Origin: Chloroflexota bacterium
Lineage (GTDB): Bacteria > Chloroflexota > Anaerolineae > Anaerolineales > Villigracilaceae
NCBI GenBank assembly: GCA_016235425.1
Contig: JACRLC010000015.1
Coordinates: 1 to 64,000, forward strand
DNA length: 64,000 bases
Reading direction: 5' to 3'
Shown: positions 4,499 through 48,530 of the stretch, piece after piece
Layout: each line of letters starts with the position of its first letter
How positions within the stretch are numbered: position 1 is the stretch's first letter
The notes under the pieces: model-generated
The model's database searches: none
Seen by the model: only the letters and a program-made list of their open reading frames with translations
Told to the model about the DNA's origin: nothing
Program-made: the position numbers and the translations under genes

Positions 4499-4575
4499 GA
4501 AGAGAGGGGGACGCGGGGAATAGAAGCCTCCTCCGCGTCTCCGCTTCCTTTTGTTATCGCTTCTTTCATTTGCAC

Positions 4576-4616: not shown

Positions 4617-4698
4617 CGCCCACACTGTACTCGCGGACCTTCAAGCCTGATGAGGAAGTGGGTAGCATGGAAATGATTTCAAGTCGCGAAGGAGCAAT

Positions 4699-5729: not shown

Positions 5730-5770
5730 GTGGTTTATCGAAGACCAGCCATCAGTAAGAAAGAAGGAAA

Positions 5771-15232: not shown

Positions 15233-15261
15233 GTGTATGTTTTCAGAAAGGAAAAAATACG

Positions 15262-23543: not shown

Positions 23544-23586
23544 CCGCCCGCGTGAAGCGGTTTTATATTCACAAAAGAGTCAAACG

Positions 23587-24660: not shown

Positions 24661-25100
24661 GGAATTGTCAATTACCGTTGCATCACCTAAAAGTATCATT
24701 AACGGAATCGTAAGGGTTGGCAGTTGCCCCATGTTTTATAATGCAACTGGGTTCTGAATGGTCTATAATCGAAGCACACGAGACCTAACTCGGACGAGCC
24801 GAAAAAGTTTTACCGCGAAGCCCGCTACACCTGCCCTGGCGGGCGGTGCCAGGGAGAGCGCAAAGATTTTAAAGGTTTTTCTTAGCGGCCTTTGTGTGCT
24901 TGGCGGTTCAAAAATTCTTGCACACGTGTGCCTGCGGCTCAGTGCAGGCAAAAAACAAGGAGTTCACTTGTCAGGTACTAAAGACCCAGGTTTTCGCGTC
25001 CATTCCGCAGAACAGCGGAAAAAAGTACAAAAGATGCAAAAATGAGAAGAAAACATCGGGAACTGCATCGAGTTTATCTATAAGAAAGGCTAGGATAATC
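24661..25100. other. 440-base intergenic region with degenerate spacer repeat
   Basis: I see no gene here. The middle part (about 24805-24930) has an imperfect inverted structure, with ACCGCGAAG on one side, GCGCAAAG in the middle and CTTGGCGGTTCAAAA on the other, the style of low-complexity spacer repeat found near other module borders in this window. Two TATAAT boxes occur at 24737-24742 (with TTGGCA 14 bases upstream, a short spacing) and at 24764-24769. Either could be part of a promoter for the surface-protein genes, which would give a leader of over 300 bases. Reading frames crossing this region have no coding character. Confidence 0.4.
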
Positions 25101-26933
25101 ATGTACGCTCGAGAGCAACTTTATCTCCAGGTAAACAACCGGCTATTGCGCTCAATCCTGGTTGGCGTGTTCATATTTTCTTTTATTATGGGAAGTTATT
25201 GGTATCCAGTTCATGCAGCCGGCACGCCTCCTAACTTAATCATTGCCAAGGTTCACACAGGCGATTTCACCGAGGGTGATGTGGGTATTTACACCATCAC
25301 CGTGAGCAATGTCGGGGGTGGTCCGACCGATGGCACAACGGTCACTGTGACAGACACCTTGCCTCCCGGCCTGACAGCCACAGACATGAGCGGCACGGGA
25401 TGGAGTTGTGCGCTGGGTACATTGACTTGCACGCGCGCAGACCCGCTTGGCGCCGGGTCGGATTATCCAAATATTACGCTGACAGTAAGTGTCGCTGTGG
25501 ATGCGGCGGCAAGCCTGACGAACGATGTAAGTGTCAGCGGCGGCGGAGAAGGAAGTGGCACAATGGACGACAACACCGCCAGCGATCTGACGACAGTTAT
25601 TCAATTGCCCGACATAATTATTACCAACGTCACATTATCACCCGAATCTCCGGATCCCAATCAGGCATTTGATGTGACTATCTCCATTACGAATCGGGGC
25701 GGCGAAAATACGGCGGATGATTTCCCCATCGATATTTATGTTGACCAAAACCCCATGGATATTATCGACCCGCTTACAGGATGCCCTTCGGAGATCGGGT
25801 ATTTTACGCAACCTGGGGATCGTTACATAAATTCCCTGCCTGCTGGATCATCCACTGTGAAAACAGCCAATTTCACCAGCGGGCTTCCCGAGGGCGTTCA
25901 CTATCTATGGATATATGCAGATGCGGATTGCATTGTTGGAGAGAGTTTTGAGAGTAATAATAACAATGGGCCGGTCATTATCAATAGCGGGTTTAATGAT
26001 ATCGACACCGCGAAAGTTATTAGTATTCCATATTCCCATTCCACAGATACCACATCTGCAACGACAGCCGTGGACGATCCCAATGTGCCCGAATGCGGAG
26101 CTGGCCAGGGTTTTGCGAGCGTCTGGTATTCTTATACTCCATCAGCCGATGGGATCGCGTACTTTGACACCTTTGGCTCAAACTACAATACTTTAATGGC
26201 GGTCTGGACTGGAACACGCGGTAGTCTTACAAGTGTAATTTGTAACGACACCACGCTTACCCTGGGTGTAACTGCCGGCGTCACCTACTACATCGAAGTT
26301 ATTCAAAATGAACCATCGGTTCCTCCTCAGATAGGGGGGGCATTAGTCTTCCATGCCACTTCGTTTGCGGATGTTCCCAGCACTTACTGGGCATGGCGCT
26401 GGATAGAAGGTCTCTACAGGGCAGGCATTACAGGAGGGTGCGCCACGTCGCCATCCAAGCTCTATTGCCCGGATAATCCGGTCACGCGCGCTCAGATGGC
26501 CGTATTCCTCCTGAAAGGCATGCATGGTTCATCGTTTGCTCCGCCTCCGGTGGGGGCCAGCACCGGCTTTGGCGATGTTCCCACAGACTATTGGGCGGCG
26601 GCCTGGATCAAACAACTCGCCGTGGAGGGCATCACCAGTGGATGCGGGAGCGGGGTCTATTGTCCCGAAAATCCTGTAACCCGCGCTCAAATGGCAGTTT
26701 TCCTGCTGAAGTCAGGGCATGGGACTGCATATACTCCTCCCCCAGTAGGAACTGGCACTGGTTTTAGCGATGTTCCCGCCGATTATTGGGCGGCGGCCTG
26801 GATCAAACAACTTGCCGCAGAGGGCATCACCAGTGGATGCGGGAGTGGAATCTATTGTCCTGACAATCCTGTAACCCGCGCACAGATGGCGGTATTTTTG
26901 GATAAAACTTTTAACCTGCCGCCATTACCATAG
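25101..26933 (+). CDS. secreted SLH-like surface protein with DUF11 and CARDB-like domains
   Basis: A 610-residue exported protein. A signal peptide or anchor helix (LVGVFIFSFIMGSYW) ends at HAAG near residue 41. A DUF11-type repeat follows at about 43-165 (VGIYTITVSNVGGG, DTLPPGLTATDMSG), then a CARDB-like domain at about 170-290 and a beta-rich pre-peptidase-like region at about 295-415. Three SLH-like repeats fill about 418-610, each with W-I-x-x-L, G-I-T-x-G-C and Y-C-P-x-N-P-V-T-R-A-Q-M-A-V-F-L. No catalytic site is visible, so it is probably a structural or adhesive S-layer-associated protein. The ATG at 25101 directly precedes the signal peptide; longer upstream frames are non-coding. 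Confidence 0.85.
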   Translation: MYAREQLYLQVNNRLLRSILVGVFIFSFIMGSYWYPVHAAGTPPNLIIAKVHTGDFTEGDVGIYTITVSNVGGGPTDGTTVTVTDTLPPGLTATDMSGTGWSCALGTLTCTRADPLGAGSDYPNITLTVSVAVDAAASLTNDVSVSGGGEGSGTMDDNTASDLTTVIQLPDIIITNVTLSPESPDPNQAFDVTISITNRGGENTADDFPIDIYVDQNPMDIIDPLTGCPSEIGYFTQPGDRYINSLPAGSSTVKTANFTSGLPEGVHYLWIYADADCIVGESFESNNNNGPVIINSGFNDIDTAKVISIPYSHSTDTTSATTAVDDPNVPECGAGQGFASVWYSYTPSADGIAYFDTFGSNYNTLMAVWTGTRGSLTSVICNDTTLTLGVTAGVTYYIEVIQNEPSVPPQIGGALVFHATSFADVPSTYWAWRWIEGLYRAGITGGCATSPSKLYCPDNPVTRAQMAVFLLKGMHGSSFAPPPVGASTGFGDVPTDYWAAAWIKQLAVEGITSGCGSGVYCPENPVTRAQMAVFLLKSGHGTAYTPPPVGTGTGFSDVPADYWAAAWIKQLAAEGITSGCGSGIYCPDNPVTRAQMAVFLDKTFNLPPLP

Positions 26934-27005: not shown

Positions 27006-27084
27006 GGCAGATTACCAAGTCTCCCGCCTTTTGTTGGGTTTGGTAATCTGCCAAAGCAAATTGCATTCTGCTGATGCAATTTGC
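27006..27084. other. two consecutive perfect hairpins between surface-protein genes
   Basis: First, GGCAGATTACCAA (27006-27018) pairs perfectly with 27040-27052 over a 21-base loop. Four bases later, GCAAATTGCAT (27056-27066) pairs perfectly with 27074-27084 over a 7-base loop. Neither has a following T run. They lie 50-130 bases before the GH26 start codon. They could be RNA processing signals, an attenuator, or operator-like inverted repeats. Confidence 0.55.
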
Positions 27085-27136
27085 AAATTATTCTGATCCT
27101 GCAAGCAAACATACTTTTCAAAAGAGGTCATTTTCT

Positions 27137-28843
27137 ATGAAATCTGCAAGGGTTCTTGGTCAAATTTTCATCCTTCTGGCAATAATATCCTTATTTCCAG
27201 GAAATCGAGTCTCTTCTGCACCGGCAACTGATCTTCCCGTTCTGGTGGGAATTTACCCCAGCGCAGAATTATATGCAACGGTGAATGAAATCTCAGGCTT
27301 GGACACTTGGTTGGGGGCTCCTACCGTATCTATCGCGGGCACATTTTTGGATCTGAAATCACCAGCCTGGCTTATAGTGGCGGAACTGAATGCATCCTGG
27401 GATGCCGGCTATATCCCCTTTATAAACCTGGGCGCGGGATCCTATCCTTGGGATAACCCGGTACCGGTTACTGCCGCCCAAATTGCCAATGGCGAGCTTG
27501 ATGTCCAAATTCGTGAGTGGGCAAACATTTATAAGGCCTGGTCATATTATGGCGCAAAGCGTGCGATGATTGCCCCACTGCAGGAGATGAACGGCGAGTG
27601 GAATACGTATGGTTTGGATGCGGCTAATTTCAAATTGGCTTATTATCGTATTCAACAGATTTTTAAAGAGGAAGGCGTACTTCGCGAATCTGTGATGTGG
27701 GTCTTCGCGCCAAACGGCTTTGCGCATCCGGGACATGAATTTGAAAACTATTATCCAGGCAATAGTTATGTGGATGCGGTCGGCTTTAGTTCCTTTAACT
27801 TCGGAGGCTGTCCCAGTGTGCCAGCCTACCAGCGTTGGGAAACTTACGATCAGATATATAAGCCATACCTGGATCGCATGGCGGTAATGGCGCCCGGCAA
27901 GCCGCTTTTTATTGCCGAAATTGGCACTGTAGCAGAGGGTGGACCAACAACGCTGATACCTGGCGATAAAAACACCTGGCTTACTGATGCGCTCACAAAC
28001 CTCGCATCTTATCCGGGGTTGCGCGGTTGGATCTACTTCAACCGGGAAGACGCGGCCAGTTCCGGCAATCTAAGCGGCTGTCCCTCGCAAGGCGATAATC
28101 GGATTTATCAGGATTTTTATGGGCAGAATTACAATGGTTTTAAGGATACTGTAACCAATCCTTCCCTTGATTATGCACAGTGGAGCACGACTGCGCCGGA
28201 AGTTAATAGCATCATGTTCAACCCGGCCAATGGCATGTTTGAGGATGTCTGGCCAGCTTCGGACTTCTCCGGTTTGAATTCCATCTGGTATGCTGATTCG
28301 GTAAACATCCTTGCTGGTTCAGGCATTACGGGAGGATGTAGTGCCACTGTTGTAGATTTACCGGGGACGGTGGGGGACATCACCTTCCGATATTACTGCC
28401 CCGATAATCAGGTAACCCGCGCCCAAATGGCTGTTTTTCTTTTGAAGGCCGGACACGGTTCAGGTTACGTGCCGCCAAAAGCAACAGGTAAATTTGCCGA
28501 TGTGCCGTCTTCATACTGGGCGGCAGACTGGATTGAGCAACTTGCCACTGAAGGCACAACCGCTGGTTGTGGCGACGGCAACTATTGCCCGGAAAACCCG
28601 GTTACACGAGCACAAATGGCTGTATTCCTTTTGAAAGCCAAGTATGGTTCATCCTTTACCCCTGCGGATGCGCTGGGTGTTTTTGCCGACGTATCAACTA
28701 CATACTGGGCGGCAGACTGGATCGAACGACTTGCAAATGAAGGCATCACTGCTGGTTGTGGCAATGGTAATTACTGTCCGGAAAATCCCGTCACCCGCGC
28801 TCAAATGGCTGTCTTTTTGGTGAAAACATTTAATCTTCCATAG
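27137..28843 (+). CDS. SLH-anchored glycoside hydrolase, GH26-like
   Basis: A 568-residue secreted enzyme. The signal peptide ends near residue 30 (LFPGNRVSSAPA). A TIM-barrel domain at about 35-345 fits glycoside hydrolase family 26 (beta-mannanase-like), with the presumed acid/base Glu150 in APLQEMNGEW and nucleophile Glu261 in LFIAEIGT. Three Cys-containing SLH-like repeats occupy about 385-568 and end in TFNLP. It should act outside the cell, held to the wall, on mannan or a related polymer, perhaps to trim the cell's own glycan. An AGAGGT site precedes the ATG at 27137; a longer frame is rejected because it begins inside a hairpin. The next SLH-like gene starts ten bases after its stop, indicating one operon. 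Confidence 0.8.
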   Translation: MKSARVLGQIFILLAIISLFPGNRVSSAPATDLPVLVGIYPSAELYATVNEISGLDTWLGAPTVSIAGTFLDLKSPAWLIVAELNASWDAGYIPFINLGAGSYPWDNPVPVTAAQIANGELDVQIREWANIYKAWSYYGAKRAMIAPLQEMNGEWNTYGLDAANFKLAYYRIQQIFKEEGVLRESVMWVFAPNGFAHPGHEFENYYPGNSYVDAVGFSSFNFGGCPSVPAYQRWETYDQIYKPYLDRMAVMAPGKPLFIAEIGTVAEGGPTTLIPGDKNTWLTDALTNLASYPGLRGWIYFNREDAASSGNLSGCPSQGDNRIYQDFYGQNYNGFKDTVTNPSLDYAQWSTTAPEVNSIMFNPANGMFEDVWPASDFSGLNSIWYADSVNILAGSGITGGCSATVVDLPGTVGDITFRYYCPDNQVTRAQMAVFLLKAGHGSGYVPPKATGKFADVPSSYWAADWIEQLATEGTTAGCGDGNYCPENPVTRAQMAVFLLKAKYGSSFTPADALGVFADVSTTYWAADWIERLANEGITAGCGNGNYCPENPVTRAQMAVFLVKTFNLP

Positions 28844-28853
28844 AAAGAAAAAT

Positions 28854-30596
28854 ATGGTTCGCAAATCGAGATTCGGCTTCCTTGCTTTAATACTAATTCT
28901 TCTGGGATCCGCAAGCCCCGTTCATGCCGTATCGTCTGTTACTTCACCGTATACGCCGGCGCTGGACTCCCCGCCTCTGATCGAGTTTAACTCTATTGCG
29001 AACGGCCTGTCCCTTCCAGTATCCATCACTAATGCCGGTGATGGATCTGGACGGCTTTTTATTACCCTTCAGGGCGGGCAGATCGTTATTCACGATGGGA
29101 CACAAATCCTCCCCACGCCGTTTCTGAATGTTGCCTCCCTGATTTCATCCGGCGGTGAACGCGGACTGTTGAGCGCAGCCTTCCATCCCGGCTATGCCAG
29201 CAACGGGTATTTCTACATCTATTACACACGCGCTTCGGATGGCGCCATTGTGATCGCTCGATATCATACATCTGCCGACCCCAATGTGGCAGATCCCGCA
29301 TCGGGAAATACCCTGATGGTCATTCCACATCCGGGCGCAGCCAATCATAATGGCGGTCAACTTCAATTTGGGCCGGACGGTTATTTGTACATCGGAACGG
29401 GTGATGGCGGCACGGGCGGGGCAAACTCACAAAATGGGAATTCCCTGCTTGGAAAGATACTGCGTATTGATGTCAACAGCGATTCTCCATATGCCATTCC
29501 TGCCTCGAATCCTTTTGTGTCCGACTCGGCGGTTGCCGATGAAATTTGGGCTTTGGGATTGCGAAATCCCTGGCGTTTCTCGTTTGATCGTTCAACCGGC
29601 GACCTCTTCATTGCAGATGTCGGACAGAACGATTGGGAGGAAATTGACTTTCAAACGGTCTCCAGTTCAGGCGGACAAAATTACGGCTGGCCCTGTTACG
29701 AAGGGAATCACATTTATAACAGTTTCAGCGATTGCACCGCCAAAGGAACTTTAACCTATCCAGTGACTGAATACAATCATGGCGCATCAGACAGCATTGG
29801 GTGTTCCGTATCGGGCGGTTATGTCTATCGCGGAAGCGAATACCCCGGCCTCTTTGGCGCGTATCTATACGGCGATCTGTGCACCGGCAGGGTATGGGGG
29901 GTATCCTCGTCGGGTGCGGGAGACTGGGCAAGCGTTGAGCTTGCTTCCACCGGTTACATTATTTCAACCTTTGGGGAAGATGAAGTCGGGAATCTATATG
30001 TTGCAGATTATGGAAACGGAAATATCTATCGCATTCTCGCCTCCACTTTTTCAGATGTATCGCCTTCCCATTGGGCCTGGTCATGGATCGAACGGTTGTA
30101 TAGGTCGGAAATAACTTCCGGCTGTACTGCCAGCCCACTGCGCTATTGTCCGGAGGATCCAGTCACACGAGCCCAGATGGCCGTCTTCCTTGAGCGCGGC
30201 ATTCACGGCGCTCTTTTTACTCCGTCCTCCCCAACAGGCATTTTTGGCGATGTATCCCCCATTCATTGGGCGGCGTCCTGGATCGAGTCACTATATGCTG
30301 ACGGCATCACTGTAGGCTGTGGCGGCGGCAACTACTGTCCAGAGCAATATACCAGCCGCGCCGAGATGTCCGTTTTTCTACTACGCGCGGAACATGGCAG
30401 CGCCTACTCTCCTCCGCCTGCCAGCGGAACAGTATTTACCGATGTGCCGCCCAGCTATTGGGCCGCGGCGTGGATCGAGCAATTAGCGGCTGAAGGCATC
30501 ACCGGTGGCTGTGGAACAAATTTGTTCTGTCCGGATAACGCCATCACGCGCGCAGAAATGGCCGTTTTCCTCGTCAAGACATTCAACCTGCCCTAA
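28854..30596 (+). CDS. SLH-anchored PQQ-type sugar (sorbosone/glucose) dehydrogenase-like protein
   Basis: A 580-residue secreted protein with a signal peptide ending near VHAVSS (about residue 26). Residues 40-395 form a six-bladed propeller of the glucose/sorbosone dehydrogenase family (GERGLLSAAFHPGY, HNGGQLQFGPDGYLYIGTGD, WALGLRNPWRFSFD, GQNYGWPCYEGNH). Such enzymes oxidise sugars with PQQ and calcium, although many family members have no proven activity. Three SLH-like repeats follow (about 398-580), one with TSRAEMSVFL in place of TRAQMAVFL, and end in TFNLP. It is ten bases after the GH26 gene, suggesting surface enzymes that work in succession on carbohydrate. A short GC-rich hairpin follows at 30610-30643. 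Confidence 0.82.
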   Translation: MVRKSRFGFLALILILLGSASPVHAVSSVTSPYTPALDSPPLIEFNSIANGLSLPVSITNAGDGSGRLFITLQGGQIVIHDGTQILPTPFLNVASLISSGGERGLLSAAFHPGYASNGYFYIYYTRASDGAIVIARYHTSADPNVADPASGNTLMVIPHPGAANHNGGQLQFGPDGYLYIGTGDGGTGGANSQNGNSLLGKILRIDVNSDSPYAIPASNPFVSDSAVADEIWALGLRNPWRFSFDRSTGDLFIADVGQNDWEEIDFQTVSSSGGQNYGWPCYEGNHIYNSFSDCTAKGTLTYPVTEYNHGASDSIGCSVSGGYVYRGSEYPGLFGAYLYGDLCTGRVWGVSSSGAGDWASVELASTGYIISTFGEDEVGNLYVADYGNGNIYRILASTFSDVSPSHWAWSWIERLYRSEITSGCTASPLRYCPEDPVTRAQMAVFLERGIHGALFTPSSPTGIFGDVSPIHWAASWIESLYADGITVGCGGGNYCPEQYTSRAEMSVFLLRAEHGSAYSPPPASGTVFTDVPPSYWAAAWIEQLAAEGITGGCGTNLFCPDNAITRAEMAVFLVKTFNLP

Positions 30597-30643: not shown

Positions 30644-30768
30644 ACTTCTCCGCCGCGCCGCGTTTCCACTCCACGCCCGCTTCTTTCCGCCCCGCTTCCT
30701 GTTCCCGTTTCGTAAGCGCTCCATCCCCTTAGCCAAAGACCCAAATCACCATGCAAGGAAATCGCGGA

Positions 30769-31815
30769 ATGCGAAAAATTTACTTTCTCTTCCCCGGAAT
30801 GAACCTGAATGTGGGCGGACACCTGGCCCAGGTGAAACTCCTTGAAGTTGCCAAAAACCTTTGCCCGGCTGAAGCTGTAACCTATGAGACCCAGGAAGAA
30901 GGCACGCGCTTCCTGAATTCAATCCTGGAACAGGATGACACACGAAACGCTATTTTTTTCATCCATTGGGGTCCTCACGTTCCAGACCTTATCAACCGGC
31001 TGGCAGAAAAAAATGTGGTCTATGTTTCCTATAGCACAGGGTACGGCTTCAAAATCCCGCCGCGCGTTCCCATCCTTGCCGGCAGCCGGCATACGCAGGC
31101 ATATTGGGGCAGGCAGGCTCCCGATTCGCTGATCTACCATCTGCCGGGCATTATCTCGGATGAATTCAAAAACCTGCATCGAAGCCGGGATATTGACGTG
31201 CTGGTTCAAAAGCGAAAATCATCGCGATATTTGCTCGAAGAATTGGTCCCCGAATTGGAACGTCATTGTTCCGTTCTGGTGTTGGATTCCTGGGTGGATG
31301 ATCTGGCGGCGGTTTTCAACCGGAGCAAGGTATACCTGTACGATTCTTCCGATTATTGGTCACAGCATGGTTTAAGTGAAGGCTTTGGGCTGCCTCCGCT
31401 CGAAGCATTGGCATGCGGCTGTGTGACATTTTCGAGCATTAATGATGCCCTTTCGGATTATTTGGATCCCGGATTCAACTGCCAAAAACTGCGTGTATAT
31501 TCAAAACAGTATGACGTGGAACGGATCTTAAGTGCAGTTAGTGGGTGGCAGGAGAAAATTCAGGAAAACGATCCCGCGGCGGAATATCGAGGCCATTCTG
31601 TCGAGAAGCGCCTGGGAATCATACTCTCCGGTCTTAATGATTTTTTTGATCATCAGGCGCTCGACCCAAATGCCTTTGAAACTGCAAACGTTTATGCTGA
31701 AGACAGGAATGCCGAGGCTGTTAACAAACCATCGCTTCCTGAACCGGTTTTGAAAATGGGACGGATCCTTCCTGCCTTCGTAAAGAAATGGATCAAGGCA
31801 TTGTTGTTTGGTTGA
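30769..31815 (+). CDS. GT4-like glycosyltransferase
   Basis: A 348-residue cytosolic glycosyltransferase of GT-B fold. The N-terminal start KIYFLFPGMNLNVGGHLAQV carries the acceptor-domain glycine loop, and the C-terminal donor-site signature SEGFGLPPLEALACGCVTF, with the E-x7-E pattern of GT4 enzymes, is near residue 205. A basic C-terminal helix (VKKWIKALLFG) may touch the membrane. The ATG at 30769 is preceded by AAGGA at suitable spacing; an ATG six codons earlier is possible. Donor and acceptor are unknown. It probably adds a sugar to the surface polysaccharide. Confidence 0.8.
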   Translation: MRKIYFLFPGMNLNVGGHLAQVKLLEVAKNLCPAEAVTYETQEEGTRFLNSILEQDDTRNAIFFIHWGPHVPDLINRLAEKNVVYVSYSTGYGFKIPPRVPILAGSRHTQAYWGRQAPDSLIYHLPGIISDEFKNLHRSRDIDVLVQKRKSSRYLLEELVPELERHCSVLVLDSWVDDLAAVFNRSKVYLYDSSDYWSQHGLSEGFGLPPLEALACGCVTFSSINDALSDYLDPGFNCQKLRVYSKQYDVERILSAVSGWQEKIQENDPAAEYRGHSVEKRLGIILSGLNDFFDHQALDPNAFETANVYAEDRNAEAVNKPSLPEPVLKMGRILPAFVKKWIKALLFG

Positions 31816-32029: not shown

Positions 32030-34729
32030 ATGCCGACAATATTCATAGGCGGTTATTATGGGGCAGGGAATCTGGGAGACGAAGCCATTTTGGATTCCAT
32101 GCTTCGCGATTTGCGTTCGTTGCGCTCGGACCTTTCATTTTCGGTTACATCATGGGACCCCGCTCAGACGAGCAAACAATACAATGTAAATGCCGTGCAT
32201 TGGAAAGATATCAACGGGATCCTGGCTTCAGGTCAGCAAGCCGACTTGATCCTGTTGGGAGGGGGAGGCTTGTTCCAGGATTACTGGGGAATGGAGCCTG
32301 AGACGTATTTACGCAGGGGCTGCAGGGATATTACCGCCTACGGAAGCCTGCCCCTGTTGGCAAAATTATTGGACATTCCCTGCATGATTTATGCAATGGG
32401 GCTTGGCCCCTTGCAAAGCACGATGGCGCTCGAACATACCCGCCTGGCATTTGAGCGCTGTCAGGCAGCCTCGCTGCGTGATAACGAATCGCTTGAATTG
32501 TTGAGACGAACAGGTTTCCAATTTGGGAAAGCCGGGGGGCCTTCAATCGAGGTTCTGGCGGATCCGGTGTTTTCGTTGGTTGAATCCGAAGAGGATGATA
32601 ACAACGTCGCCGAGTTTCTGCGCCAGAGACAAATTGACGATCAGACTGAATTGGTCGGTGTTGTGTTGCGTTTTTGGGATCGTGCCGGGTCCCTGCACGA
32701 TTGGCTGCCACCCATTGCAGAGGGTATCAACCGTTATTTGGGAGAGAACACCCGCGCCCAGGTTGTACTTATTCCATTCCAGGTGAATGAAGCCAATCCT
32801 TACACAGATGATGCCGCAGTTTTAAAACAGCTCTACCAGTTCATGGCTGAGTCCTGGCGTGTCCACATTATCGAAGAAAGCATCACCCCGCGCTTTGCCC
32901 AGGCGTTAATAAAGAAATGCTCTGTGGTGTTGGGTATGCGCCTGCATGCTTTGATTCTGGGAATAAATGTATCCACTCCAATCGTGGCGCTGCCGTACGA
33001 TCCCAAAGTATCGGCTTTGATGAAACAGGCCGGCCTGGAAGCATTTTGTTGTGACTCGATTTCGCCAAACCCGGAGGAATTGGCCGCCAAACTCAAAATT
33101 GCCCGAGACAATCGAAAAGAGTTGCAAGCCAGGATGCGCACACTGGGGGGTGAATGGGCAACTTTGGCAAAGAAAAATGCGACCCTGGCTGTGAGTTTGC
33201 TTCGTGATTCCCGACGTGCCCGTCTAAACTTTCCCCAACAATTTGCCTTGGAGCAGTTGGCACTATTGGAAAAAACGGATCATGAACTTGAGGTGCAATT
33301 GGCCGAAAACCATGCTCTTCAATCCCGCCTCTCGGAATTGGAAATACTCGCTGGAAAGCTTGCGGAAATTCAGACGAGCAACTTCTGGAAGCTGGCAAAG
33401 CTCTACTACCGAATTATGGATGAAAGCCCGGTCAGGCATGTTTATAAATTCATGGTCGCCTGGAAACAGGAGGGCTTGGGCCGCGCCTTGCAAAAGGCGG
33501 CGGAAAAAATAAAGACCCGTGCAACATCCAGAAAATCCATCCCTGTATTCATAGATGAAGAAGATTTGGATTCATCCAGGATTTTGCAGAATGCCATTAA
33601 AACCCTGAACTCCAGATCGCTCAAGGGAATCTTTGTGGTCACCAGCGCTTTTGTGTTTGACGAACTTTATAATCAGAGGGTAATCAATCTTTCAAAATTT
33701 CTAGCACGTGAGAATTGGGGGGTGATTTATGTTGCCTGGCGTTGGACCAGGGAGGAAAAAATGCCGGGCGCCGGGCAGGAAGTGTACAAAAACGTATTCC
33801 AAATTCCCGTGGACGTATTTCTTCAAAACCTGGAGGACATGGCGGGTATAACACATGCAATTAAATACTTTGTCGTGGAGTTTCCACATCCCGAATTCTT
33901 TTCGGCCGCTCTCAAGCTTCGGCGCTACGATTTCAAAGCGATCTATGAGATCATCGATGACTGGGAGGAATTCAACAAGGTCGGCCAGGCGATTTGGTTC
34001 ACCAAGAACATCGAGAAGGCACTCGTTCTCAACGCCAATTTTTTGACGGCTGTTTCCCAACCTTTGGTTGATAAGTTTTCCGGCGTGCGGCGGGATATTC
34101 ACTTAATACCGAATGGTTATGACCCGGCCTTGCTGGGAACGAGACATCGAAACATCGCCAAAAGAAAATTCAAGGAAGATGAGATGCACCTGGGGTACTT
34201 CGGCCATCTTACCGAATCATGGTTCGATTGGGATTTTCTTTTTGGAGCGCTGGACCTTGCAGAGAAAAAAAATATAAAATTGAAACTGCACATCATTGGT
34301 TATGGTGAACCAAACCAGCAGGAGAGACTGGAAAAATACCAGGACAGGGTGAAGCTTTACGGTAAAATTAAACCATCCGACCTGCACCATTATGCAAGGG
34401 AATGGGATGCGGCTTTAATATGTTTTAAGTCTGGAAGACTTAGCGAAGCAGTTGATCCCATCAAAGTATATGAGTATGCTTATTTTGGCCTGCCGGTGAT
34501 CGTCAAGGGAATAAACCATCTAAAGGATTACCCATCGGTATACGTTGTGTCAGACGAAGAACAATTCATTGGAACGCTTGGCGCGCTTCGAAACAACGCG
34601 CAGATGCGCCGCCATGAATTTGTCCCGTCCCCCGGGAGCGTCGAACAGATGCTTGCAAAATCCACCTGGAAGCGAAGATTCTCACATCTATTGAATATTT
34701 TGGAGAGCGAAGGATGGATGTCCTTGTAA
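32030..34729 (+). CDS. fusion of CsaB-like polysaccharide pyruvyl transferase and GT-B glycosyltransferase
   Basis: An 899-residue two-enzyme protein. Residues 1-385 match the polysaccharide pyruvyl transferase family (CsaB): GGYYGAGNLGDEAIL at the start, ADLILLGGGGLFQDYWG near 75, then VLGMRLHALILGI near 302 and ALPYDPKVSALMKQAG. CsaB adds a pyruvate ketal from phosphoenolpyruvate to wall-polymer mannosamine, the ligand of SLH domains. A coiled-coil linker (about 405-460) leads to a glycosyltransferase at about 540-899 (YEIIDDWEEF, LIPNGYDP, KVYEYAYFGLPVIVKG). That second half is related to the last domain of the protein at 39692. CsaB is normally about 360 residues and stands alone, so the fusion is notable. 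It overlaps the next gene by 16 bases. Confidence 0.88.
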   Translation: MPTIFIGGYYGAGNLGDEAILDSMLRDLRSLRSDLSFSVTSWDPAQTSKQYNVNAVHWKDINGILASGQQADLILLGGGGLFQDYWGMEPETYLRRGCRDITAYGSLPLLAKLLDIPCMIYAMGLGPLQSTMALEHTRLAFERCQAASLRDNESLELLRRTGFQFGKAGGPSIEVLADPVFSLVESEEDDNNVAEFLRQRQIDDQTELVGVVLRFWDRAGSLHDWLPPIAEGINRYLGENTRAQVVLIPFQVNEANPYTDDAAVLKQLYQFMAESWRVHIIEESITPRFAQALIKKCSVVLGMRLHALILGINVSTPIVALPYDPKVSALMKQAGLEAFCCDSISPNPEELAAKLKIARDNRKELQARMRTLGGEWATLAKKNATLAVSLLRDSRRARLNFPQQFALEQLALLEKTDHELEVQLAENHALQSRLSELEILAGKLAEIQTSNFWKLAKLYYRIMDESPVRHVYKFMVAWKQEGLGRALQKAAEKIKTRATSRKSIPVFIDEEDLDSSRILQNAIKTLNSRSLKGIFVVTSAFVFDELYNQRVINLSKFLARENWGVIYVAWRWTREEKMPGAGQEVYKNVFQIPVDVFLQNLEDMAGITHAIKYFVVEFPHPEFFSAALKLRRYDFKAIYEIIDDWEEFNKVGQAIWFTKNIEKALVLNANFLTAVSQPLVDKFSGVRRDIHLIPNGYDPALLGTRHRNIAKRKFKEDEMHLGYFGHLTESWFDWDFLFGALDLAEKKNIKLKLHIIGYGEPNQQERLEKYQDRVKLYGKIKPSDLHHYAREWDAALICFKSGRLSEAVDPIKVYEYAYFGLPVIVKGINHLKDYPSVYVVSDEEQFIGTLGALRNNAQMRRHEFVPSPGSVEQMLAKSTWKRRFSHLLNILESEGWMSL

Positions 34730-35769
34730 TTTACCAATTCTGTACCTTTGGCGGGGTGGAACGCGTTATCCTAAATCGGGCAAAGGCTTTTAGAAAACAA
34801 AGGCTGGATGTGAAAATATCCATTGGATATTTGCGCGATCGCGGCGCTCTCCAATCCTTCAAGGACTATATCGATGTAAACAACCTGAATGGGGTGGTCT
34901 CGCCGTTCATCCTGCCTGCCGATCTATCCCACAAATGGGATAAATATGATTATGTTTTCATTATTGACACCCCGGAGGTATTCGAAGCGACAGCTTCTGC
35001 CCAAAATGTGTATGTGGAATGTCATACACCTTATAAGCAGAGCCGCCAGTACCTTGGGAATATGCCAGGTCATGTCAAAGGGATCCTTGTTCCTGCAAAA
35101 TCGTTCAAAACGCTGATCCAAAACGAATTCTCCAGCCTGCCTGAAGTATTCGTGATGCCCAACCCGGTGTCAGATGAATTTTATAACATTCGGCCTTTGG
35201 AGACGGAAATCTTTACGAAAAGGCCTCTTACTTATTTTGCCAGAGTGGAGGACCTGAAGAATTTCATCGAAGCCGCCCGCATCTTCGAATTGACCTCGAG
35301 CATGGACGATGTAATGTACTGGATCATCGGCGAAGGAGGGGACGAAAAAAAATTAATCCATTCCCTCGAACGCAAGGGACTGCTTGAGAGGTCCATCCTC
35401 CGCGACCGGGTTGATTTTGATAAAGTTCCCACCCTCGTTAATCTGGTCAAAAGACACAGGGGAATATTCATCTCCCCATCCAAGGGAGAATCATTCGGCT
35501 TGAGCGCCGCCGAGTTCATGAGCGGAGGCGTCCCCGTCCTGTTATCGGATATTCCGGCGCATAAGGAACTTGTGGAAAACGATGATAGATTCTTATATAA
35601 ATTGGGAAATATATCTTCCGCCGCAATAAAAATGGAGACCCTTTTGAACGATTGGGACAATATGAGCGAAAGGGCCGGAGCGCTTGCCCGCAAATTCAGG
35701 GAAGATAATTTCCTTAAAGCCTGGCAATTTTTTATAGCCGATCAGCAATCAAAAATGGGCGTTAGATGA
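34714..35769 (+). CDS. GT4-family glycosyltransferase
   Basis: A 351-residue GT-B enzyme. It opens with VLVIYQFCTFGGVERVILNRA, a typical GT4 acceptor-side glycine loop. The donor-side motif GESFGLSAAEFMSGGVPVLL near residue 253 contains the two conserved acidic residues. AEGATG-like context is provided by a GAAGGATGG segment before the ATG at 34714, and the gene overlaps the CsaB fusion by 16 bases in another frame, implying coupled translation. Sugar specificity cannot be told from sequence; action on a lipid-linked intermediate at the inner face of the membrane is the usual role in such loci. Confidence 0.88.
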   Translation: MDVLVIYQFCTFGGVERVILNRAKAFRKQRLDVKISIGYLRDRGALQSFKDYIDVNNLNGVVSPFILPADLSHKWDKYDYVFIIDTPEVFEATASAQNVYVECHTPYKQSRQYLGNMPGHVKGILVPAKSFKTLIQNEFSSLPEVFVMPNPVSDEFYNIRPLETEIFTKRPLTYFARVEDLKNFIEAARIFELTSSMDDVMYWIIGEGGDEKKLIHSLERKGLLERSILRDRVDFDKVPTLVNLVKRHRGIFISPSKGESFGLSAAEFMSGGVPVLLSDIPAHKELVENDDRFLYKLGNISSAAIKMETLLNDWDNMSERAGALARKFREDNFLKAWQFFIADQQSKMGVR

Positions 35770-37496: not shown

Positions 37497-39695
37497 ATGC
37501 CAAAATCTTTGTCGGGGCTTTTGAATTATTATCGGAGTTTTTGGAATGTTTACCAATTGGAAGAGAAAGCCAAATGGAAACTGTGGGATTCATCCCAAAA
37601 TACCGTCGATAAGACGGAACGTGTCTCTCTGGTTGTTTTGGGAAACGAAGATACCACACAGATAAACGCCTTTCTTGCATCTTTAAAACAGCAAACCTGG
37701 CTCCCGGATGAGGCCATCTTAGTGGGATTATCTGCCGCTGAATCTTCTGAATTACAAAAAAAGGAGGCCCTTCAAGAAAATCTCCCATTTCCAGTTCGCT
37801 TTCTTGACAATCCTGGAAATTCTCCCGGCGCTGCAAGAAATCTGGGTATTGACCTTGCCAGCTATCCCATCGTGGTTCTTGGGGGAGTGGATTGCCTGCC
37901 GGAACCGGAGTGGCTGCAACAACTTTTGACACCTCTTATGTGCGAACCAACTCTTGCGTTTAGTTTGGGAGAGGTGTTCGATCCCAATCCAGTCCACCTT
38001 GCGCTCCAGCGTTTTTATAAGTCAGAGAAAACGCATCTGCCACGGTCACCCTTCACTTTTGAAAAATCCCTTGCCCTGCGTAAAATTTGGTGGGCGCGGG
38101 CAGGTGGATTTCCAGAGGATGTTCCTCCTTTTACCGATTCATCTCTTTTTGCAGAACGCCTTTTGGCTCAGGAAATCACTTGTGCCTGCAACCCCGCCGC
38201 CAAAGTGAATCAGGGTTTTTCGGTTTCAACACCTAAAACATGGAAGCTGGCTTTCAAAATGGCAGTCGGAGAGGGACGGATCGGCTTATTCGCTCCATTC
38301 ATTTGGAAACAGTTAAAGTATTTCCTTGGCGCTATGTCCCTGGCATTGACATTCATCCTGTTCCTCGGCGGCACATTCAAGATTGGTTTTATTCCTGCGG
38401 CAGTCTCATTTGTTTTTCTGGGCCTATGGATGCTGGTTTGGGGAAAAGCGCTTAATAGAGCCCCTGGTAATGAAAGTGCCAACACTTGGGCGAGAAACTG
38501 GTTGCTCGCGGGACTGGCGCTATCCCGCTTCCTGGGTTATCTCTGGGGAGTACGTCAACGTTCCCAAACACTGGACAACTTGAACAAACAAGCCGAGCGG
38601 CACCTGGAAAAGATTGTATCCGCCCACCCTGACCGAAAGGGTATCATCGTTTATTTTCCCACACACGATTGGGGGCATATGTTCCAGCGGCCCCAACAGA
38701 TGGCCCGTCACCTTGCACAGGCTGGCTATCTATTTTTCTATGGCACAAAAAACGAGATATCCGATGCGGTGTACGAATTCCACCTTGCGGAATCAAACTT
38801 GTATCTCGTATCCATGCCCGCCGTGCCGCCGGAAGTATTCCGTACTGTGGGGCCTGTAATCTTGTACATTGGCGCCGCCTGGCATGCCGCCCTTCTCGAT
38901 CTGTACCCGGACTCTCTCTCGATTTATGACCACTACGATGATCTGAAAGTCTCATCCGCCCAGGTTGAGGATCACGAAACCCTGCTGCAACGCGCAGATG
39001 CCATCCTGGCCAGCAGCCAGCAGTTATTTGACACCGTAAAACACACACGCCCGGATGTTCTCTTTATTCCCAATGCAGTGGACGACAAATGGGTGGAAAA
39101 ATTCCAGCCAAAACCGGAAATCCCTCCTCCTCCCGACCTGTTGCCAATTTTGCAAAAGAACCAACCCATCATTGGATACAGCGGCGCCCTCGCTGAATGG
39201 TTCGATTATCCCCTGCTTGCCGAAGTATCGAAACAACATCCCGAATGGCAAATCGTTCTGCTTGGTGTGAATTACGATCACAGCCTCGACAACAGCGGCA
39301 TTCTGGATATGCCCAATGTCCATTGGCTGGGTCAAAAGCCCTACGATCAACTCTTCCATTATGTTTGGCGGTTTGACGTGGCCACAATCCCCTTCAAGAT
39401 CAACGAGATCACCTATGCCACCTCGCCGATCAAGCTTTTCGAATATTTCTTCTGCCAGAAACCGGTTGTATCCACGCCGCTTCCCGAATGCGCGCGGTAT
39501 AATCAGGTGCTTATCGCCGATACCCCCGAAACATTCAGCGCCCAAATTCAGCAAGCCCTCACAATTGCCTCCTCGCAAGAGTACCGGGATGCAGTCTGTC
39601 AAGCTGCGCGTTCAAATACGTGGGAACAACGAGTCAAGCTGATCGTCTCCCGCCTGAATGAAATCAAACACCTCAAAAATGGAGGTCGTGATTGA
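37497..39695 (+). CDS. bifunctional glycosyltransferase, GT2 + GT-B
   Basis: A 732-residue protein with two transferase domains. Residues 40-260 are GT2-like (VSLVVLGNEDTTQINAFLAS; the family's NxGxxxARN as GNSPGAARNLGI; GGVDCLPEPEWL where many enzymes have a D-x-D). Two or three membrane helices follow at about 275-350. The C-terminal GT-B domain (about 380-732) has MFQRPQQMARHLAQAG, IPNAVDDKW, GYSGALAEWFDY and TSPIKLFEYFFCQKPVV. This half is clearly homologous to the first domain of the following protein. GAGG lies ten bases before the ATG. It probably makes a two-step addition while membrane bound. Confidence 0.82.
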   Translation: MPKSLSGLLNYYRSFWNVYQLEEKAKWKLWDSSQNTVDKTERVSLVVLGNEDTTQINAFLASLKQQTWLPDEAILVGLSAAESSELQKKEALQENLPFPVRFLDNPGNSPGAARNLGIDLASYPIVVLGGVDCLPEPEWLQQLLTPLMCEPTLAFSLGEVFDPNPVHLALQRFYKSEKTHLPRSPFTFEKSLALRKIWWARAGGFPEDVPPFTDSSLFAERLLAQEITCACNPAAKVNQGFSVSTPKTWKLAFKMAVGEGRIGLFAPFIWKQLKYFLGAMSLALTFILFLGGTFKIGFIPAAVSFVFLGLWMLVWGKALNRAPGNESANTWARNWLLAGLALSRFLGYLWGVRQRSQTLDNLNKQAERHLEKIVSAHPDRKGIIVYFPTHDWGHMFQRPQQMARHLAQAGYLFFYGTKNEISDAVYEFHLAESNLYLVSMPAVPPEVFRTVGPVILYIGAAWHAALLDLYPDSLSIYDHYDDLKVSSAQVEDHETLLQRADAILASSQQLFDTVKHTRPDVLFIPNAVDDKWVEKFQPKPEIPPPPDLLPILQKNQPIIGYSGALAEWFDYPLLAEVSKQHPEWQIVLLGVNYDHSLDNSGILDMPNVHWLGQKPYDQLFHYVWRFDVATIPFKINEITYATSPIKLFEYFFCQKPVVSTPLPECARYNQVLIADTPETFSAQIQQALTIASSQEYRDAVCQAARSNTWEQRVKLIVSRLNEIKHLKNGGRD

Positions 39696-42600
39696 ACGTC
39701 ACTACCATAGCCGCCGAAACTGAAGCGGAAAAAGAAATCCTGAACACAATTGCAAAACATCCTGAAGCCAGGCAAACCATTATTTTCGCGCCCAGCTTAT
39801 CCTGGGACGATAAAATGTTCCAGCGGCCTCAACAACTGGCGCGTGCCTTTGCGCGCCGCGGCGCGTTGGTGTTCTACATGCAGCCCGATCGTTCCTGGCC
39901 GCCCGTCTTTACCGAAATCGAAGAACGTCTCGTAATATGCCGTACCCCTGCCGACGCGTTTCGCATCGTTCCAGATGCCTTCATTTACGTGCTTACCTGG
40001 AATATTCCCCTTCTGGCCTACTTTGATTCCCCGCGTGTGATATACGATTACCTGGATGATCTCTCCGTTTTTCAAGGAGACCCCCAGCGCATTCGACGTG
40101 ACCATGGGGATTACCTGCTAAAAGCGGACCTCGTTCTCGCTACATCCGACAGGCTTTATCGTCAGGCCGCTTCACTTCGGACCGACAGCCTGCTCTGCCC
40201 CAATGGGGTGGATACTCCCCACTTCGCTGATTCTGCCAATACCATACCCGACGATCTGTCACCTATCCTCGCCACAGGTAGGCCGGTGATCGGCTATCAC
40301 GGAGCCATGGCGCGTTGGTTGGATTATGAGCTTCTGGCTGCCCTGGCAAAACAGAGACCGGATTATTCCTTTGTTCTGATAGGTTCGGACCACGACCAGA
40401 GCCTGCACGCCAGCGGTATTCTCGAACAGCCAAACATCCACTGGCTGGGATCGAAACCATACAATGAATTGCCGCGTTATGTGAGCCGGTTCAAAGTGGG
40501 GTTAATTCCTTTTGTGGTGAACGAGATTACCCATGCCACATCGCCAATCAAATTGTTCGAATATTTCGCCGCGGGAAAACCCGTTATCGTTTCTCCGATG
40601 GAGGAAAGCAGCCGCTCTCCGGCAGTGCTGATCGCAGGCACTCCCGAGGAATGGCTGGAAAAAATGGAACAAGCCCTGAAACTGGCAGAGGATCCAAAAT
40701 TTGTGGAACTTTTGCAAACCATTGGCCGCGAAAATTCGTGGGAATCCCGCGCCGAATCCATCCTCGAAAGGTTACAGGTGATTCGCGTTACCCCGCGAAG
40801 AAAACCCTGGTACATTCGCTTACAGCCTCGCAACCCCCGGATACAACAAGTCATCCGGCTGGCCGGCCGCGGCTTAAAAGTGCTGCGAATGTCCGGTATG
40901 CGGGGTTTTCTGAAAGGGATATATTATAAATTCTATGACCGCTTCGCGCGCTTGCGGCAGTCTCCCCTGTTTCGCTTGCCGCGCGCCTTGGAAGATACCT
41001 ATATCCCGGAAGATAACAGCCAGGTGACACTTTACACGGATGACGGTGACTTATTGCCTGATTATTGGCCGCGCAGCGGCCTAACACAGACTCCCGCCAA
41101 TCAACCACGGCCGCGTGTCTCGTTGATCGCCACCACGTACAACGAGAAGAAACAAGCATCGGAGTGGTTGAAAAGCACGTTACAGCAAAGTGTTTTACCC
41201 GACGAAATTGTGATCGTAGACGGCGGCTCAACCGACGGCACGTTTGAGCTGTTGAACTCTTTCGTGGAAAAAAGCGCAGTGCCATTGCTTGTGATCTCTG
41301 AAAAAGGGGCGAACATCGCACGCGGACGAAATACTGCGATCCAAAATGCCCGCCATGACGTTATTGCCGTCACCGACTGCGGGTGCCGCATAAAGGACAC
41401 GTGGTTGGAAAACCTGATGGCTCCGTTCATGCTTGAGCCGCGCACACAGGTTGTATCGGGGTGGTATCGGGCAGTTGACTCCCAGGGACGCGAACTTCCC
41501 TATAAAGGCTGGCCAGCTTTGGGGGAGGTCGATCCGCAGGCCTTCGTCCCGTCATCGCGCTCGCTCGCTTTCACAAAAGATGCGTGGCGGCAGGCAGGGG
41601 GATATCCCGAATGGTTAACGCTGACTGGCGAGGATACGTACTTTGCCCTGGAGCTTAAACGATTTTGCACTCATTGGGCATTCGTTCCTTCGGCTGTGGT
41701 GGATTGGATTGGTCCTTTGTCATGGGCGGAGTTTTGGAAAAAAGCCTGCACGTGGTCCACGGGTAACGGAGAAATTGGTTATAACGCCTGGCTCTACCGC
41801 CTGACCGCCCGCCGCCTCGTGATGGGTCTTCTGGGAATCGCGGCGGTATATTTCCTGCTGGGATATGCAATTACGAAGTTATTCCACTTGTCCCCGATAT
41901 TCTCGTGGGCAGGCAGTCTTTTGGGATTGGGAGTTCTTTTGTTTGCCGGGTTGGGATGGCTGAGAAAGATCACTCCCTCGGAAGCGCTGGGATCTTTGGG
42001 TTTGCGGATCATGCAAACCTGGGGGTTCTGGGCCGGCGCGAAGCGCAAAGCGCAAGTGGACCTGCGCCGCCTGGCCGGGACAAAGGGATTGTTCTTCATC
42101 CTGGCAGGCGTTCCCATAGACGACACAGGGGGCGGCGCGCGCTGTACGCAAATCGCTTTGGAACTTCTGCGCCAGAATTATTGGGTTGTTTACGCACATC
42201 GTTATCCCAAATGGGAAAATGCAAACTCTGTGATACGCATCGCTCATCCAAACCTGTTCACCTATATTCTCGGTGAATTTGAATGGGACGATTTTGTCCG
42301 CCGGTACGGATTATTATTGAATGACCGCCAGGCTTATGCTCTTATCGAATTTCCCTCTCCCGAATTCCTGCCGTTTGTGCGAAAGATCGGTGAAAAAGGA
42401 GTGAAGATCCTCTATGATATGATTGACGACTGGGATACGTCCCTGGGAAACTGGGGATATTCATCCAGTATTGAACGCGAAATGATTCGCATAAGCGACG
42501 ACTTGATCGCAACAGCGCCGGCGCTCAAAGAAAAACTGGAGGATATTGGCCAGAGGCCGGCGGTCATGCTTCCTAACGCGGTGAATAGCCGCATGTTCAA

Positions 42601-48499: not shown

Positions 48500-48530
48500 G
48501 GTCTTTTCCTTTCGTAAAGTGGTATCCAAA

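Follow-up and report, generated by a model that had tools for sequence, protein, structure and literature searches.

How pyruvylated polymers anchor SLH-domain proteins is known mainly from work on Firmicutes, where the pyruvyl transferase CsaB stands alone. Part of this picture comes from P. alvei, whose CsaB, in the available sections of PMC6030368, is a separate enzyme that works after TagA and acts on lipid-linked repeats, with a UDP-GlcNAc 2-epimerase as the source of UDP-ManNAc for its acceptor. Residues proposed to bind phosphoenolpyruvate (PEP) and acceptor are D106, R217 and R337 in Pvg1p and R148, R306, H308 and K328 in CsaB (sections of PMC4872226 and PMC10435577).

Chain-finishing enzymes can share a polypeptide with glycosyltransferases (GTs). 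According to the available sections of PMC11231755, K. pneumoniae O7 ORF6 is a methyltransferase-kinase followed by a coiled coil and two GT2 modules, K. pneumoniae O12 WbbB is a Kdo transferase with two polymerising GTs, and in this layout it is the N-terminal enzyme that finishes the chain. WbdD of E. coli O9a is a kinase-methyltransferase without a GT module (PMC3482155 and PMC11231755, in part). Addition of PEP to reactions with the pyruvyl transferase WbbZ shortened chains in vitro, which its authors read as premature termination (PMC10629545, in part), and the terminal pyruvate of Klebsiella O1 that WbbZ provides is not required for chain-length determination (PMC11231755, in part). Our searches of an open-access library turned up no description of a CsaB-GT fusion, and the available sections of PMC11231755 and PMC10629545 mention no protein in which a pyruvyl domain is linked to a coil and a GT.

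Results

The fusion gene occupies positions 32030–34729 on the + strand of the 64-kb stretch of DNA that we analysed (the window). It is a single uninterrupted ATG frame of 899 codons which, as judged from the frame, from Pfam matches and from an AlphaFold2 model, encodes a pyruvyl transferase, a linker and a GT-B glycosyltransferase in one chain of 899 amino acids. A preliminary description of this DNA had presented the frame as intact and had named a missed stop between the halves as a possible refutation; we looked for one and the frame is open throughout. The open frame, together with the occurrence of pyruvyl-GT fusions in 10 other genomes of the order, rules out an overlooked stop codon or a frameshift separating the two domains, and the same recurrence rules out an isolated oddity. 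Structure prediction of the full chain, one of the checks proposed beforehand, gives two well-predicted domains (mean pLDDT 83.9, pTM 0.53), and solved GT-B-type folds superpose on residues 1–394 and 532–897 with Z scores of about 23–27 among the matches listed. No solved structure was matched by phmmer to the fusion protein at E 0.01, and Pvg1p (5ax7) is absent from the best 50 structure matches of the model. The best Foldseek match, the capsule multienzyme 8qoy, was set aside (TM-score 0.27, rmsd 25 Å). The modifying enzyme is N-terminal and the GT C-terminal in one chain, the same format as in WbbB and ORF6-O7, and by that likeness the N-terminal modifier of the 899-residue fusion would be a chain finisher.

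The N-terminal half holds a PS_pyruv_trans domain (residues 14–325; 32069–33004, + strand) that matches PF04230 with E 4e-34 and 119.2 bits, where the cut-off is 25.3, which bears out the earlier identification of a CsaB-like pyruvyl transferase. D17, R150, R304 and H306 inside the domain and K326 just after it (codon starts 32078, 32477, 32939, 32945 and 33005, + strand) are invariant across 21 aligned domains, so that the loss of key residues, the other refutation named beforehand, is not seen. The claim of a "complete family pattern" stands for these five residues and is slightly too strong as a whole, because the score for the CsaB model TIGR03609 (195.7 bits) is under the NCBIfam cut-off of 213.1; L038, a protein of the same clade as the fusions, passes with 214.6 bits. 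R150, R304, H306 and K326 correspond by motif to R148, R306, H308 and K328 of P. alvei CsaB (K326 by motif only); these four are the P. alvei residues that the mapping covers. The correspondence to D106, R217 and R337 of Pvg1p rests on a profile hit to 5ax7 that is weak (E 0.011) and has a negative score for the segment containing D106. With this mapping, the putative PEP- and acceptor-binding residues are kept in the fusion, and its CsaB-like domain may transfer pyruvate from PEP. The preliminary description had CsaB-type enzymes normally standing alone at about 360 residues, which is true of the Bacilli sampled: the CsaB cut-off is passed in 119 of 299 Bacilli genomes, and the frames listed for matches over it are at most 509 amino acids long, save one of 758.

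The linker (residues 376–531; 33155–33622, + strand) had been described as a heptad-rich coiled coil, a description that we could not confirm. It is part-helical in the model at low confidence, with pLDDT below 50 across most of 395–469 and across 497–513, and its longest run free of proline and glycine is 39 amino acids. Its heptads are no better than those of shuffled sequence (equal scores in 155 of 1000 and 517 of 2000 shuffles, two tests), so that a significant coiled coil is not supported, and an amphipathic helix is not significant either (431 of 1000 shuffles as good). The extended coiled coil expected of polymerase-terminator proteins was not found in this linker. Among 15 proteins tested, a 3.5-residue periodicity of the linker stands out in eight (no more than 13 of 1000 shuffles scoring as well), most clearly in L038, L071 and L034; the best periodic stretches of L069 and L073, with their prolines and tryptophans, may not be coils. 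Bacilli linkers that precede the GT in a methyltransferase-GT and a glycerophosphotransferase-like-GT protein fall in between (52 and 29 of 1000 shuffles). Within the linker of the fusion lies a junction motif, SNFWKLAKLYYRIMDESPVRHVYKFMVAWKQEG (residues 450–482; 33377–33475, + strand), that can be aligned with the Bacilli proteins L033 and L136.

Pfam, alignment and structure comparison identify the C-terminal half as a GT4-like GT-B domain (residues 532–897; 33623–34720, + strand). Glyco_trans_1_4 matches residues 720–846 with 34.7 bits against a cut-off of 27, the N-terminal half of GT4 gives a sub-threshold Pfam match at 550–700, and 6kih, 3c4q and 6d9t match residues 531–898 with Z scores of 26.3–27.5 among the matches listed; the domain is thus a full GT-B domain, as first proposed. 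A DPIK.YEY motif is invariant across six aligned sequences. The nearest relatives of the GT half are Bacilli proteins, among them L033 and L136 (40–42% identity). L033 (41%) has a SAM methyltransferase in the N-terminal place, followed by the junction motif and the GT, and L136 has in that place a glycerophosphotransferase-like domain (PF04464, 19.3 bits, under the cut-off of 22.1). Three different N-terminal modifiers (pyruvyl, methyltransferase and glycerophosphotransferase-like) are therefore found on one GT. L033 resembles the window in GT half, junction motif and next gene, and L136 in GT half and junction motif, whereas both differ from it in the N-terminal modifier and in an ABC ATPase that bears Wzt_C. 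In L064, L066 and L069, a relative of the GT half is encoded by a gene of its own within the same cluster.

The domain-architecture search proposed beforehand returned 12 pyruvyl-GT fusions among 65 PF04230 matches, in 11 of the 201 genomes of the order Anaerolineales; two of the fusions, L064 and L065, share a contig. The remaining matches are 40 comparison loci and 13 weak or partial matches, which were left out. Removal of L095, an FrhB-pyruvyl fusion that stands outside the counts, left 39 controls. The related pyruvyl domains have GT partners of at least three kinds, namely GT2, TuaH-like GT4 and other GT4. In a midpoint-rooted tree of 74 domains, the 11 of 12 fusions included form one clade together with the coil-ended L038, a CsaB-like protein with a coil and without a GT. 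L073, which holds part of the domain only, is outside the tree, as are four controls unmatched by our home-made domain profile (L079, L084, L105 and L111), which are in the neighbour count. Bacilli CsaB fall on the same side of the tree as the fusions, and 32 of the order's 35 stand-alone enzymes in the tree fall on the opposite side of the joining fork, which is weak (51/76). Outside the counts, we also observed pyruvyl-flippase fusions in L035 and L037 (Pfam) and L036 (by kinship of sequence alone), another with the order reversed in L039, and a pyruvyl-GT4 fusion without a linker in L140, from a Bacilli genome.

Upstream of the fusion, all on the + strand, lie a UDP-GlcNAc 2-epimerase gene (23329–24660), genes for three SLH-domain proteins, with DUF11, CARDB and three SLH (24894–26933), a GH26-like domain (27074–28843) and a glucose/sorbosone dehydrogenase-like domain (28854–30596), and a glycosyltransferase gene identified by Pfam (Glyco_trans_1_2; 30751–31815). 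Downstream on the same strand, a GT4 glycosyltransferase gene (34714–35769) overlaps the fusion by 16 bases, and in L033, L064, L066, L069 and L073 a relative of this GT4 likewise follows a relative of the GT half. There follow a GT2-GT4 fusion (37497–39695), the GT4 part of which resembles the GT after the pyruvyl domain in L067 and L065 (41–42%), and, by Pfam and kinship, a GT4-GT2-GT4 fusion (39692–43129), the GT2-GT4 part of which resembles the GT2-GT4 parts on the pyruvyl domain in L064, L067, L069 and L071 (39–44%). An ABC transporter, as the polymerase-terminator type requires, is encoded by an ABC-2 membrane protein gene (43146–43976, + strand) and a gene for a 257-residue ATPase (43954–44727, + strand). 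No Wzt_C cap-binding domain was found in this ATPase; Wzt_C is present in the clusters of G112, L033 and L136. The window also holds an SLH-domain metallophosphoesterase gene on the − strand (47072–48529) and rhamnose-type, sulfotransferase-like and many GT genes. The fusion is the sole PF04230 match of the host genome, which has 66 SLH matches and, elsewhere, four LCP ligase matches. TagA/WecG was not found in the host genome, which makes synthesis of the P. alvei acceptor by the same route improbable here.

SLH-protein genes are present in 8 of 10 fusion stretches, of which the window is one, compared to 1 of 39 stand-alone controls (p 9e-7; because the loci are related, this and the following p values overstate the evidence). 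L068 and L073 were excluded from these counts, as their contigs have 3,056 and 7,176 bases, and SLH genes were not found in the stretches of L064 and L072. Without the three loci that trained the profile, the window among them, the counts are 5 of 7 against 1 of 39 (p 9e-5). Pfam matches alone give 5 of 10 compared with 1 of 39 (p 7e-4), and counting by genome gives 5 of 11 compared with 11 of 190 (p 6e-4), with no SLH match in the other 6 fusion genomes in the Pfam genome search. Mean stretch length is 16.8 kb for the fusions without the window and 17.4 kb for the controls. Five SLH matches were reported for each of G504 and G436 (in G436, with 33 of 40 candidates scored), yet an SLH gene adjoins the fusion. 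An ABC pair like that of the window occurs in 6 of 10 fusion stretches compared with 6 of 39 controls (p 0.008), or in 5 of 9 fusion stretches without the window, the source of the query genes (p 0.02); the search showed no such pair in L066 and L069 and the ATPase alone in L071 and L072.

Discussion

With a probability of roughly one half, we suggest that the fusion is a bifunctional variant of a polymerase-terminator, in which the GT builds, the CsaB-like domain caps, the ABC transporter exports and SLH proteins bind. The domains, the invariant residues, the recurring gene neighbourhood and the exchange of N-terminal and GT partners are the observations behind this suggestion; both activities, the acceptor, the terminal pyruvate, the growth stop, the export route and the SLH binding are what it predicts. 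The C-terminal GT-B domain would add a sugar, or sugar repeats, to a lipid-linked chain at the membrane. The N-terminal CsaB-like domain would then put a pyruvate ketal from PEP on the sugar at the growing end and so finish the chain, with the linker keeping the two active sites apart. The ABC pair (43146–44727) would export the finished chain, and SLH proteins would bind its pyruvylated end at the surface. That the tag is a finishing cap is suggested because relatives carry the same fusion beside genes for SLH-type surface proteins, and since the N-terminal enzyme finishes the chain in described systems of the same layout, the GT would act first.

The layout of N-terminal finisher, linker, C-terminal GT and ABC pair matches the polymerase-terminator plan by analogy, and this likeness to ORF6-O7 and WbbB (described in sections of PMC11231755) supports the suggestion. 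The fusion differs from both in that pyruvyl transfer would be the finishing step, in that its linker is short and in that its ABC ATPase has no cap-binding domain; the latter two features count against the full analogy. Moreover, other members fuse a different GT, so the fused GT of the window need not be the polymerase. WbdD is similar in having a modifier domain and a coil in an ABC-dependent pathway, and L038 resembles it most. WbbZ of K. pneumoniae O1 shares the pyruvate at the chain end and the shorter chains in vitro (PMC10629545, in part), but is separate from its own polymerase, WbbY. P. alvei CsaB is of the same domain family with matching R/R/H/K residues, and SLH-protein and UDP-GlcNAc 2-epimerase genes lie near the fusion; the fusion, unlike CsaB, is joined to a GT4-like domain, scores under the CsaB cut-off and comes from a genome in which TagA/WecG was not found.

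A rather unlikely alternative is that the pyruvyl domain modifies the inside of the chain, as described for P. alvei CsaB on lipid-linked repeats (PMC6030368, in part): pyruvate would be placed on a sugar of each repeat, the fusion would merely group two enzymes of the same repeat, and SLH proteins would bind pyruvylated repeats along the chain. Such internal modification would account equally well for the SLH linkage, and the nearby 2-epimerase gene, the LCP ligase matches, the short linker and the ATPase without a cap-reading domain all fit it. However, the fused GT is GT4-like rather than TagA, TagA/WecG was not found, and both the ABC pair in the cluster and the methyltransferase and glycerophosphotransferase-like domains on the same GT and junction in Bacilli would be left unexplained. 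It is more doubtful still that the pyruvate belongs to an exopolysaccharide unrelated to SLH proteins, the SLH genes being nearby by chance or through shared cell-surface islands. SLH neighbours are not rare in a genome with 66 SLH matches, and the rhamnose-type, sulfotransferase-like and GT genes of the window would suit an exopolysaccharide, but the contrast with controls of similar mean length, the SLH genes beside the fusions of G504 and G436, with five reported matches each, and the position of the fusion clade on the CsaB side, with most stand-alone enzymes across the weak fork, argue against it.

The preliminary description had proposed that pyruvylation comes first and that the fused GT then attaches the next sugar to the pyruvylated residue or close to it, an order of steps that we consider very improbable. 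Two activities in one chain could hand a product between sites, and three loci have an unfused relative of the GT half in their cluster; together with the fusions in 11 of 201 genomes, this co-occurrence supports the broader claim that the two activities serve one pathway. A coupling to addition of the next sugar is unsupported, as at least three kinds of GT follow related pyruvyl domains. Two of the closest relatives of the GT half carry other N-terminal modifiers, the N-terminal enzyme finishes the chain in systems of the same layout (PMC11231755, in part), and pyruvylation by WbbZ in vitro went with shorter chains (PMC10629545, in part), all of which speak against pyruvylation before the next sugar.

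If the fusion does cap chains, then chain termination in ABC-dependent glycans and surface anchoring by SLH domains, which have been studied separately, would meet in one protein. Here the pyruvyl step would belong to a protein that also builds the chain and is encoded near SLH genes, unlike the stand-alone CsaB of Firmicutes. A wider idea, which we put forward tentatively and at less than even odds, is that in this lineage a polymerase-terminator machine produces SLH ligands that end in a pyruvate cap, on a modular junction-GT chassis that takes pyruvyl, methyl or glycerophosphate-type caps; the SLH anchor would then exist only at chain ends, and the protein that makes the chain would set its distance from the membrane. 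The fusion offers a clear test, whether pyruvate is at the end or inside of the anchor chain, for which the caps exchanged on one GT chassis are natural parts.

A single frame joins a CsaB-like domain to a glycosyltransferase

The open reading frame at 32030-34729 (plus strand) runs unbroken from ATG to stop over 899 codons, bearing out the preliminary description of a single intact frame. It encodes a PS_pyruv_trans domain (residues 14-325) and a Glyco_trans_1_4 domain (residues 720-846), each above its Pfam cut-off; the NCBIfam CsaB model TIGR03609 scores 195.7 bits, below its cut-off of 213.1. An AlphaFold2 model built on a 19-sequence alignment (mean pLDDT 83.9, pTM 0.53) contains two well-predicted domains separated by a poorly predicted stretch (about 395-513). 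Among the matches listed, residues 1-394 resemble solved GT-B-type UDP-GlcNAc 2-epimerases (Z about 25) and residues 532-897 resemble solved sucrose-phosphate synthase, MshA and BshA (Z about 25-27).

No loss of key pyruvyl transferase residues is seen: D17, R150, R304, H306 and K326 are invariant across 21 aligned pyruvyl domains. Profile comparison with Pvg1p (5ax7) gave a weak match (E 0.011, with the piece containing D106 alone scoring below zero) in which D17, R150 and R304 lie opposite D106, R217 and R337, described as the proposed catalytic residues of Pvg1p in PMC4872226. R150, H306 and K326 are the counterparts of R148, H308 and K328 of Paenibacillus alvei CsaB, which PMC10435577 describes as critical to PEP binding. 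Because the invariant residues correspond to these site residues, the pyruvyl domain looks competent from its sequence.

The linker had been called heptad-rich, a description that did not hold up: two tests written for the purpose found as strong a signal in 155 of 1000 shuffles and in 517 of 2000, and no amphipathic helix was demonstrable in it. Heptad periodicity stands out in eight of the 15 linkers tested (at most 13 of 1000 shuffles; comparison loci L034, L038 and L068-L073), with the best stretches of L069 and L073 containing prolines and tryptophans.

Glycosyltransferase fusions form one clade

PF04230 occurs in 49 of the 201 genomes of the order (65 matches). Twelve of these matches, spread over 11 genomes, have glycosyltransferase (GT) domains in the same protein, L073 being counted by BLAST and genome search only. 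What directly follows the pyruvyl domain varies: L068 and L073 have a TuaH-like GT4 resembling the window's, L034, L065, L067, L070 and L072 have another type of GT4, and L064, L069 and L071 have a GT2 and then a GT4. L066 is cut inside its GT2: the pyruvyl-GT2 frame (2420-4678, plus strand) stops there and the next frame (4811-6361, plus strand) is a match for the latter GT2-GT4 portion of window gene 39692-43129, which may reflect a split gene or an assembly fault. Kin of the window's GT half are separate genes in the same cluster in L064 (36% identity), L066 and L069.

In a tree of 74 pyruvyl domains, all 11 GT fusions included share one clade (97/93) with L038, a CsaB-like protein that comes from elsewhere in the phylum and carries a coil but lacks a GT. 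The 15 Bacilli CsaB proteins form their own clade (99/99), and a further clade (100/99) unites L035, L036 and L037, pyruvyl-flippase fusions that belong to other groups within the phylum. The tree includes 35 of the order's stand-alone pyruvyl transferases: 32 sit across its deepest, weakly supported fork (51/76), and L096, L099 and L106 lie on the CsaB side outside the fusion clade. Within this sampling, then, the fusion clade contains none of the order's stand-alone genes (17 of the 65 matches lie outside the tree, 13 not fetched and four unmatched by the domain profile).

The two halves have different relatives

The pyruvyl half of the window's fusion falls among fusions of the same order. 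Its GT half is placed, with moderate support (85/85), closer to proteins from Bacilli, the nearest three of which share 38-42% identity with it, than to the GT4 found in L068 and L073, at 28-29%. In L033, from Paenibacillus phytohabitans, a SAM methyltransferase is followed by the same junction motif and GT; in L136 (Bacilli) a glycerophosphotransferase-like domain (PF04464, 19.3 bits, below cut-off) takes that place; and in L137-L139 (Bacilli) the GT stands alone. Matches to this half are rare in Bacilli (5 of 299 genomes). The next gene after the fusion, 34714-35769, is closest to the following gene in L033 (35% versus 26-29%). The simplest reading is that the fusion would be a mosaic produced by exchange within the linker. 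The L136 gene (9787-12588, minus strand; 934 aa) also has a coil-like linker, and lies near an NTP-transferase gene and an ABC ATPase with Wzt_C.

Most fusion loci lie near SLH-protein genes

The fusion is the sole PF04230 match found in its genome (99.57% complete), which has 66 surface-layer-homology (SLH) matches and four LCP ligase matches; a search of it for TagA/WecG returned no match. SLH-protein genes lie in eight of the 10 fusion stretches fetched (the window, L034, L065, L066, L067, L069, L070 and L071; none was found in L064 or L072) versus one of 39 stand-alone controls (L094; Fisher p 9e-7), although such p values overstate the evidence, given the kinship among the loci. The SLH profile was built partly from the window, L066 and L071, and without these the count is 5/7 versus 1/39 (p 9e-5); Pfam genome hits alone give 5/10 versus 1/39 (p 7e-4). 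By whole genome at E 0.001, SLH matches occur in five of 11 fusion genomes versus 11 of 190 others (p 6e-4); leaving out the genome of the window gives four of 10 (p 0.003). Pfam misses SLH in the L067 neighbour and gives only a sub-threshold match in that of L070, so their repeats are divergent. An SLH gene also adjoins L038, and none was found in the three pyruvyl-flippase stretches. An ABC pair like the window's membrane protein and ATPase (43146-43976 and 43954-44727) is present in six of 10 fusion stretches versus six of 39 controls. If the window, which supplied the query genes, is left out, the count is five of nine (p 0.02).

The window's SLH repeats (26361-26891, 28490-28810 and 30243-30563) carry a conserved cysteine pair, GC...(Y/F)CP, before the RA(Q/E) motif, as do SLH-like repeats of L066, L067, L069 and L070. 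The window also encodes a sulfatase (14968-17634), a sulfate permease (12019-13764) and sulfotransferase-family proteins (52803-53555 and 58978-59760), and the glycan may be sulfated. Three multi-domain methyltransferase proteins (53679-56321, 56724-58706 and 60227-63367), one with DUF707, one with GT2 and one with GT2 and GT4, make it seem that this genome favours such fusions.

A possible order of steps

The CsaB-like domain, the GT and the terminator-spacer-GT plan are each of a known kind; no description of a pyruvyl transferase-GT fusion was found in the open-access papers searched. In ABC-dependent O-antigen systems, as described in PMC11231755, the enzyme that completes the glycan is placed at the far end of a coiled coil, apart from polymerase modules that may belong to the same polypeptide. 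The fusion keeps this domain order, with the pyruvyl transferase in the finishing place. PMC10629545 reports PEP-dependent polymer shortening in vitro with the terminal pyruvyl transferase WbbZ. The neighbouring SLH genes point to SLH proteins as possible readers of the pyruvate; PMC6030368 gives pyruvylated ManNAc as the Firmicutes SLH ligand. A UDP-GlcNAc 2-epimerase is encoded at 23329-24660. Taking these together, the most likely order would be that the GT half acts first in chain building, the pyruvyl domain places pyruvate last, the ABC transporter exports the chain and SLH proteins bind it. The domain anatomy and gene linkage are observed; from them we infer the two activities, the acceptor, the end position of the pyruvate and the arrest of the chain. 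This differs from the preliminary description, which suggested that pyruvylation could be coupled to addition of the next sugar.

A serious rival is that the pyruvyl domain acts on internal repeats, as P. alvei CsaB is described as working on lipid-linked repeats (PMC6030368). Also counting against the proposed order, chain length in Klebsiella O1 is not set by the terminal pyruvate according to PMC11231755, the spacer of the fusion is short and has no significant coil, and no Wzt_C was found in the window's ABC ATPase, unlike the ATPases in the clusters of L033, L136 and comparison genome G112.

Other pyruvyl transferase fusions

In Bacilli, L140 (5762-8008, minus strand; 749 aa) joins a CsaB-like domain directly to a full GT4 with no linker, and is the only CsaB match above cut-off with a frame longer than 509 aa among the matches listed. 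L095 (1804-5283, plus strand; 1160 aa) combines FrhB/FdhB-type iron-sulfur domains with a pyruvyl transferase, its tail weakly matching coil families. In other families of the phylum a CsaB-like domain is fused to a polysaccharide flippase in L035 (10222-13263, plus strand) and L037 (9449-11806, plus strand), both by Polysacc_synt in Pfam, and in L036 (3174-6146, minus strand), assigned by pyruvyl-domain kinship and length; L039 (5592-8093, minus strand) has the two domains in the opposite order. In Bacillus, csaA and csaB are adjacent, and the pyruvyl-flippase fusions would unite the two in one gene.
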